Assembly: GCA_015229045.1 (NCBI GenBank)
Contig: JADGCJ010000143.1
Span: forward strand, 1-8,298
Direction of reading: 5' to 3'
Length of the DNA: 8,298 nt
Source: Magnetococcales bacterium
GTDB taxonomy: Bacteria > Pseudomonadota > Magnetococcia > Magnetococcales > DC0425bin3
In this document: positions 5,890 to 6,753 of the stretch, one piece after another
Layout: each line of letters starts with the position of its first letter
Position numbering within the stretch: position 1 is the first letter of the stretch
Position numbers and translations under genes: made by a program
Notes under the pieces: generated by a model
Database searches by the model: none
Told to the model about the DNA's origin: nothing
Seen by the model: only the letters and a program-made list of their open reading frames with translations

Positions 5890-6753
5890 ATGGCCCCATT
5901 TGCGGAACAAACCATCAGGGCACTGCTGATCGAGGATGACCTCAGCTTTGCCACGATGATCGGTGAATGGCTGGAAGATGTCGAACGGCAACATTCGTCC
6001 ATTCTGCCGTACCATATCTTCCTGACCCGGGTCTCAGAACTCGCCCACGCCTTTGAGGAACTGAAACGCAGTTCATTCGACATCCTGCTCATCGATCTGA
6101 ATCTTCCCGACTCCATGGGCCTGGAAACCTTTGAAAGGATCCGGCATTACACTGCCTCCTTTCCGGTAATCGTCCTTTCCGGCCTGGACGACGAGTCCCA
6201 AGCCATCCAAGCGGTACGCAATGGCGCCCAGGACTATCTGGTTAAAAATACCATTGACGGAAACCTGCTGTTCCGTTCCATCGGGTATGCCATGGAACGC
6301 CATGCACTGAAACTGGCATTGGAACAAGTTCGGGAATCGGAACGACGCGCCCGGGAACTGGGATCCCTGGATCGGCTTTCCGAAAGAAGTTTGAGCCGGA
6401 TCGCAGCCGAGATGCTCGGCATCCGGGAATTGAAACGGGATTATCAGGACATATTCCAGCGGTTGGTCGCACGTTTTGGCGTAGTACTTGACCAACAAAT
6501 TCAAATGCGTACCCATAAGGTGACCTATAACATTTCCGACGAACTCAAGCAGCTTGCCGCAGAACTCGGCTTTCTGCGCTGCGGTCCCAGGGATGTGGTG
6601 GATCTTTACCTGACCACCCTGGAACAACGGGAAGTTCCCGGGTATCCGCAGAGAAACGAAGCGATTCACGAAGAGTGCCGCTATCTGGCATTCGAGCTGA
6701 TGGGACGCCTGGTATCCTTTTACCGACCCTATGCCATGGGAGGCGACGGATGA
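5890..6753 (+). CDS. Response regulator with a C-terminal KaiA/RsbU-like helical domain
   Basis: A 287-residue protein directly before kaiB. The N-terminal REC (about 8-130) has E15/D16/D17, phospho-acceptor D69 in IDLNLPDSMGL, S97 and K119 in GAQDYLVK. A charged coiled coil (about 136-176) leads to an all-helical domain (about 178-283) that is neither a known DNA-binding domain nor an enzyme. By pattern it fits the KaiA/RsbU-N superfamily: a first helix LKRDYQDIFQRLV, a middle helix starting GPRDVVDLYLTTL, and a last amphipathic helix YLAFELMGRLVSFY, which resembles the end of RsbU-N and KaiA domains. In cyanobacteria KaiA stimulates KaiC autophosphorylation; no other kaiA is visible here, so a KaiA-like or adaptor role is plausible but inferred. 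The start is uncertain: ATG 5890 is given, but TTG 5881 overlaps the previous stop (TTGA) and would add three residues; neither has a Shine-Dalgarno sequence. The protein is a certain receiver; the C-terminal assignment is moderate. Confidence 0.88.
   Translation: MAPFAEQTIRALLIEDDLSFATMIGEWLEDVERQHSSILPYHIFLTRVSELAHAFEELKRSSFDILLIDLNLPDSMGLETFERIRHYTASFPVIVLSGLDDESQAIQAVRNGAQDYLVKNTIDGNLLFRSIGYAMERHALKLALEQVRESERRARELGSLDRLSERSLSRIAAEMLGIRELKRDYQDIFQRLVARFGVVLDQQIQMRTHKVTYNISDELKQLAAELGFLRCGPRDVVDLYLTTLEQREVPGYPQRNEAIHEECRYLAFELMGRLVSFYRPYAMGGDG

Follow-up and report, generated by a model that had tools for sequence, protein, structure and literature searches.

Domain architecture and KaiA homology of the REC protein encoded before kaiB

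We analyzed 8,298 nucleotides from a Magnetococcales bacterium (GenBank assembly GCA_015229045.1, contig JADGCJ010000143.1; hereafter the window), in which the gene directly preceding kaiB and kaiC encodes a receiver (REC) protein with a KaiA-like C-terminal domain. Its open reading frame (ORF; 5890..6753, + strand) runs from an ATG start to a TGA stop and specifies 287 amino acids; a TTG nine bases upstream, at 5881, is a possible alternative start. The receiver domain (~residues 7-130; 5908..6279, +; PF00072, E 3.3e-16) leads into a long helix in the AlphaFold model (residues 124-166; 6259..6387, +), a probable coiled coil, and then into the four-helix KaiA-like domain (residues 177-283; 6418..6738, +), delimited by the model and fold comparison, with profile matches for helices 2-4. 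An earlier note, made from the sequence alone, had described REC, a coiled coil and about 105 C-terminal residues lacking a DNA-binding or enzyme motif, and this description holds: in Pfam nothing reached cut-off for the C-terminal 110 residues (T6PP_N came closest, E 0.023), and neither NCBIfam nor PDB sequences gave a match. T6PP_N, also seen in 5 of the 23 family members described below (best E 0.006), was rejected, as were the other weak Pfam matches, all being sub-cut-off.

Searching with residues 160-287 recovered the window protein and 22 others (together the window family, 23 proteins). Fifteen of the 22 relatives carry an organism name (14 Magnetococcales or Magnetococcus, one Gammaproteobacteria), and another source places one of the 14 under Nitrospirae. 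Two findings show that the ORF is not a chance reading frame: these relatives match at E ~1e-69 to 1e-29, and conservation in the C-terminal domain equals that in REC (mean pairwise identity 60.5% versus 58.7%). Within the C-terminal domain, CGPRDVV (89.6%) and the last helix (78.2%) are especially well conserved. The REC residues D16, D17, D69, S97 and K119 are identical in all 23 sequences, so the domain should be phosphorylatable, with Asp69 (codon 6094-6096) as phospho-acceptor.

AlphaFold placed the C-terminal helices at residues 186-209, 215-228, 233-247 and 253-282. The segments YQDIFQRLV, GPRDVVDLYL and YLAFELMGRLVSFY, in which the earlier note had recognized a helix pattern resembling KaiA and the N-terminal domain of RsbU, fall inside these predicted helices. 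The closest fold to the predicted domain was KaiA (8-10% identity in structural alignments), with RsbR-type structures almost level in Z, while the fold list for the full-length model consisted mostly of receivers and two-domain sensor proteins and was uninformative for the C-terminal domain.

The sequence link to KaiA ran through intermediate families. PF07688 matched none of the 23 window-family members at E <= 1, and neither it nor PF21714 (KaiA_N) gave anything over cut-off in the genomes of 12 relatives. Those genomes held three sub-threshold PF07688 matches (E 0.08, 0.12 and 0.24), the first two of which exposed a second REC-KaiA paralogue adjoining other kaiB genes (the M paralogue of Magnetococcia; P0024-P0031, n = 8). 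A search with M led to P0032 (E 6e-13), a REC protein whose C-terminal domain passes the PF07688 cut-off (29.0 versus 22.2 bits), and a search with P0032 returned P0024 together with 26 more REC-KaiA or PAS-KaiA proteins (with P0032, the K proteins; P0032-P0058, n = 27); of two of these scanned, P0038 lay barely above that cut-off (22.4) and P0050 below it (19.4). Thirteen of these proteins (P0033-P0037, P0040-P0043, P0045, P0046, P0048 and P0049; 290-323 amino acids) carry the KaiA-like domain behind an N-terminal PAS domain and have no receiver; a precomputed PF07688 label is attached to 6 of the 13. A plasmid search for named KaiA3 proteins gave matches swamped by receiver domains.

In profile comparisons (E-values stated for 10,000 sequences; P0020 of the window family and P0058 of K, which the trimming pattern missed, left out here but included in the residue alignment below), the window-family profile matched all eight M and 26 of 26 K proteins (worst E 1.4e-4), and the window family was matched in turn by the M profile (22/22, worst E 0.026) and the K profile (22/22, worst E 0.0085). 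Reversed decoys matched neither the window profile nor the M profile; the K profile gave seven such matches (best E 0.3). Values from hhalign were 97.1% for window-K, 96.3% for window-M and 99.9% for M-K. A profile containing no window-family row (A4; 13 of the 27 K and three of the eight M rows; the profile A2 comprises 17 of the 23 window-family rows) placed eight distinct KaiA sequences at the top when compared with PDB sequences (E 3.6e-6 to 2.2e-5; next row 0.093). Judged from this chain of sequence profiles, from the window family through K and M to KaiA in the PDB and PF07688, the C-terminal domain is homologous to KaiA over helices 2-4, the part spanned by the matches (window residues 206-283 with M, 215-279 with K); helix 1 of the KaiA-like domain is predicted by the model only. 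Profile search and structure prediction, both proposed in the earlier note, each favored KaiA.

Individual residues were compared in a MAFFT alignment with two KaiA sequences and with the conserved-position table of PMC8113500. The last helix (6646..6735, +) aligns with the KaiA dimer-interface helix, window E262, R264, E269, M271, G272, L274, Y278 and R279 corresponding to KaiA D260, R262, D267, I269, A270, L272, Y276 and R277. Across the 23 members, D260 appears as Glu in 22 and Asp in one, D267 as Glu in all and A270 as Gly in all; R262 and L272 are each retained in 22 and Y276 and R277 in 23, with Ser, Ala or Phe at the E274 position. KaiA H237 is replaced by Tyr in 23/23. Y198 and Y205 are likewise replaced in 23/23, a statement that depends on the MAFFT alignment since helix 1 lies outside the profile matches. 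All three residues are kept in the 27 K proteins, the eight M proteins and the single match outside Magnetococcia described below (G392), and the available text of PMC8113500 lists them without variants in cyanobacterial KaiA. In a tree of 61 rows, a branch (support 99/95) separates the window clade, whose stem is long (1.87 changes per column), from all other rows, and G392 is a long branch; many forks are unresolved because there are only 107 columns.

Gene order and pairing with KaiC

The earlier note's placement of the gene directly before kaiB was borne out in the window and beyond. Thirty-seven bases separate its stop from the start of kaiB (6791..7096, +; PF07689, E 2.9e-30; PRK09301 above cut-off, TIGR02654 below its cut-off), for which a longer ORF from 6731 is also open, and kaiC (7122..8298, +; Pfam and NCBIfam matches) follows, cut by the window end before its phosphosites. 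Directly upstream lies a single-domain receiver gene (REC1; 5426..5884, +), whose stop is five bases before the ATG, preceded by genes for a PAS-PAS histidine kinase (HK2; 3071..5326, +; Pfam) and a short histidine kinase (HK1; 2253..3074, +; Pfam).

A pattern-based scan (one genome per species) yielded 13 loci whose titles name either Magnetococcales or Ca. Magnetaquicoccus, and kaiB then kaiC directly follow the window-type gene in every one, the kaiC of L008 being an ORF of 339 residues. This L008 gene (6761-7780), the kaiC of the first of two pairs, has a best match spanning only window KaiC residues 224-392 and is either truly truncated or misassembled. Three of four further copies have kaiB-kaiC behind the window-type gene; the fourth (G025) is cut by a contig end, and a fitting kaiB-kaiC pair opens another contig of the same genome. 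REC1 precedes the window-type gene in 16 of the 17 copies (not found in L007), and 13 copies have a co-directional HK2 homologue upstream; within the stretch searched there was none in L007, L084 or L085, and L010 is cut by its contig. HK2 is therefore a candidate cognate kinase, and REC1 a candidate phosphorelay partner, of the REC-KaiA-like protein. Among 398 genomes sampled from the phylum, A4 matched in 21, namely 20 Magnetococcia and G392, where the order is again HK2, REC1, REC/KaiA-like gene, kaiB and kaiC, with ~1 kb between REC1 and the KaiA-like gene that includes an opposite-strand receiver-like ORF.

Of 48 Magnetococcia genomes, 22 have KaiB, and the 20 with a KaiA-like domain are all among them. 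The two others are G018, whose KaiC stretch contains three stop codons, and G034. One G034 contig (C421, L082) holds two kaiB genes and a KaiC 38-39% identical to the window type, adjoining a histidine kinase; no KaiA-like match was found in this genome, which apparently has a KaiA-less system within the same class. The window type (17 copies in 16 genomes) occurs in the same 16 genomes, and the same number of copies, as KaiC at least 75% identical to that of L001, a relative's locus, counting the truncated KaiC of G008; the Fisher value of 4.4e-13 is overstated because the genomes are related. The M type occurs in eight genomes, seven of which, plus G007 (where it lies at one edge of a contig of 3,178 bases), have a KaiC sharing 50-58% identity with that of L001. 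In G036 this KaiC is in two pieces, and in G002 it is cut by a contig end (L081) and hence falls below the threshold.

Both types stand in tandem in L008 (REC1, window type, kaiB, kaiC, M, kaiB, kaiC) and, with a contig break, in G025. In L003 the first pair is intact and is followed only by an M ORF of 77 residues and a second-kaiC ORF of 138, with kaiB between them (L003:8320-9274), apparently a second Kai cluster caught during decay. G035, G036, G037 and G038 have the M pair and lack the window-type pair. From these patterns, each KaiA-like gene appears to be retained or lost together with its KaiC, whereas extra kaiB genes stay.

The partners also differ at the KaiC phosphosites (ORFs below 300 residues were left out of this survey, and two L077 pieces were read afterwards). 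The motif is HFSSITD in 17/17 window-type partners (18 rows, L076 repeating L009), HISTITD in the seven readable M-type partners (L081 is cut before the site) and the G007 fragment, and HISTVTD in G392. We take the phosphorylated pair of Synechococcus elongatus KaiC to be S431/T432. The second motif position is Thr in aligned cyanobacterial-type KaiC, and the phosphorylated residues of KaiC3 are Ser423/Thr424 in the available text of PMC11372060.

A probable divergent KaiA3-type regulator and its alternatives

Our data favor, with a probability of roughly three in four, the interpretation that the window gene encodes a divergent KaiA3-type protein regulating the KaiC encoded two genes downstream. 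The protein has a REC domain with all phosphotransfer residues, a fixed place before kaiB-kaiC and a one-to-one association with one KaiC type, and Magnetococcales with the window family probably carry a KaiA-KaiB-KaiC timer with two-component signal input. The C-terminal domain would dimerize through its last helix, as in KaiA, bind the C-terminal tail of KaiC and promote KaiC autophosphorylation, with KaiB opposing. Less surely, HK2 or HK1, perhaps via REC1, may phosphorylate Asp69 and thereby switch or tune this activity, such that an environmental signal might determine which phase or state the KaiC timer is in. The earlier note had proposed a phosphorylation-gated KaiA analogue: KaiA homology, a complete REC and kai linkage now stand behind the analogue, and phosphorylation of the receiver may gate it. 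A broader picture, which we offer tentatively, is that Magnetococcales have one or two insulated three-protein Kai oscillators or timers, each KaiC having its own REC-KaiA, in which the window-type KaiA and the Ser-Ser pair changed together and a histidine kinase acting on KaiA provides clock input.

Taken without the intermediates, the window profile does not reach KaiA directly: against PDB sequences it gave only four weak rows, one for a glutathione transferase and the other three for designed coiled coils. The loss of H237 (and apparently of Y198 and Y205), the long clade stem, and the kinases and proteins with common REC, PAS or GGDEF parts flanking the cluster would fit a changed role, in which the KaiA-like domain is an output adaptor that binds KaiB-KaiC without stimulating phosphorylation and passes the clock state to neighboring two-component proteins. 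However, the receiver is an N-terminal, fully equipped input module, the dimer-helix residues are retained, and the gene is retained alongside its own KaiC type, not alongside KaiB alone; we therefore consider an output adaptor unlikely, though the most plausible of the alternatives.

A second alternative is RsbU/RsbR-type partner switching, in which the domain would recruit an anti-sigma or stressosome partner and its proximity to kaiB would be incidental. This seems quite improbable, as the sequence profiles lead to KaiA, none of the eight window ORFs scanned matched a phosphatase, STAS or RsbT-like family, and linkage to one KaiC type is strictly one-to-one. RsbU joins a kinase-recruitment domain to a PP2C phosphatase, and membership of RsbU itself was rejected because the fold scored weakly and the window protein gave no phosphatase match. 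Sources label relatives simply as a response regulator or a DNA-binding response OmpR family regulator, which would suit an ordinary response regulator whose helical output domain is unrelated to KaiA. The earlier note had named a DNA-binding or HPt domain as telling against its proposal, but no helix-turn-helix or HPt family was among the matches of the 23 members, the window protein included, and fold and profiles point to KaiA, making this the least credible alternative.

Among the closest known systems is KaiA3 (Sll0485) of Synechocystis PCC 6803. As described in the available text of PMC11372060, KaiA3 shares with the window family a REC with a phosphorylatable Asp, a KaiA-like four-helix C-terminal domain and a gene directly before kaiB(-kaiC); the two are compared here by that published description. 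In contrast to KaiA3, the window family falls below PF07688, lacks H237 (apparently also Y198/Y205), pairs with a Ser-Ser rather than Ser-Thr KaiC, and forms a separate long-stemmed clade that is here Magnetococcales-type only, save one Gammaproteobacteria-named row. Rru_A3293 of Rhodospirillum rubrum is named as a KaiA3 orthologue in the available part of PMC10931921. Cyanobacterial KaiA (PF21714 + PF07688) resembles the window protein in C-terminal fold, dimer-helix residues and operon place, but its N-terminus is a pseudo-receiver without the Asp (PMC11372060, available text), whereas the window protein has a complete REC. According to the accessible portion of PMC8113500, a few KaiA proteins of cyanobacteria have a REC-type N-terminal domain, and two records from outside cyanobacteria contain kaiABC operons. 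The M and K proteins share the architecture of REC (or PAS) plus homologous C-terminal domain, M also within kai clusters, but keep Y198, Y205 and H237, and M pairs with a different, Ser-Thr KaiC. RsbU/RsbR N-terminal domains share the helical bundle. The window family is a diverged version of the known REC-KaiA kind, and we found no description of it, or of KaiA in Magnetococcales, in the open-licence PMC literature.

kaiBC clusters outside cyanobacteria are often taken as KaiA-less, and such systems are described for magnetotactic Nitrospirota and multicellular magnetotactic forms in the available text of PMC10278575. Here KaiA appears to be present but diverged past Pfam's reach, and since an intermediate family suffices to reveal it, other 'KaiA-less' systems may merit the same check. 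The kinase of KaiA3 is not yet identified according to the available text of PMC11372060, and the recurring order of kinase, receiver, REC-KaiA, KaiB and KaiC offers a concrete kinase candidate for KaiA3-type proteins. Clusters in tandem, with different KaiC phosphosites in their two KaiA-KaiC pairs, offer a natural experiment for studying insulation and the role of the Ser/Thr pair.

Other signaling genes around the cluster

HK1 and HK2 (2253-5326, +) have in common the HisKA stretch LQQF(V/A)(H/Y)(A/V)ASHDLQ(A/E)PLRLI, presumably typical of phytochrome-class kinases, and we take REC1 to be Rcp1-like in appearance. The Pfam scan of HK1 and HK2 matched no chromophore domain. At the other end of the window, a gene on the minus strand (34-2133) encodes a REC-PAS-GGDEF protein whose receiver is similar to that of the REC-KaiA gene (DLNLPDSMGL...GAQ(D/E)YLVK), and proteins with REC, PAS or GGDEF parts in common with it are encoded downstream of the kai genes in 13/13 loci.
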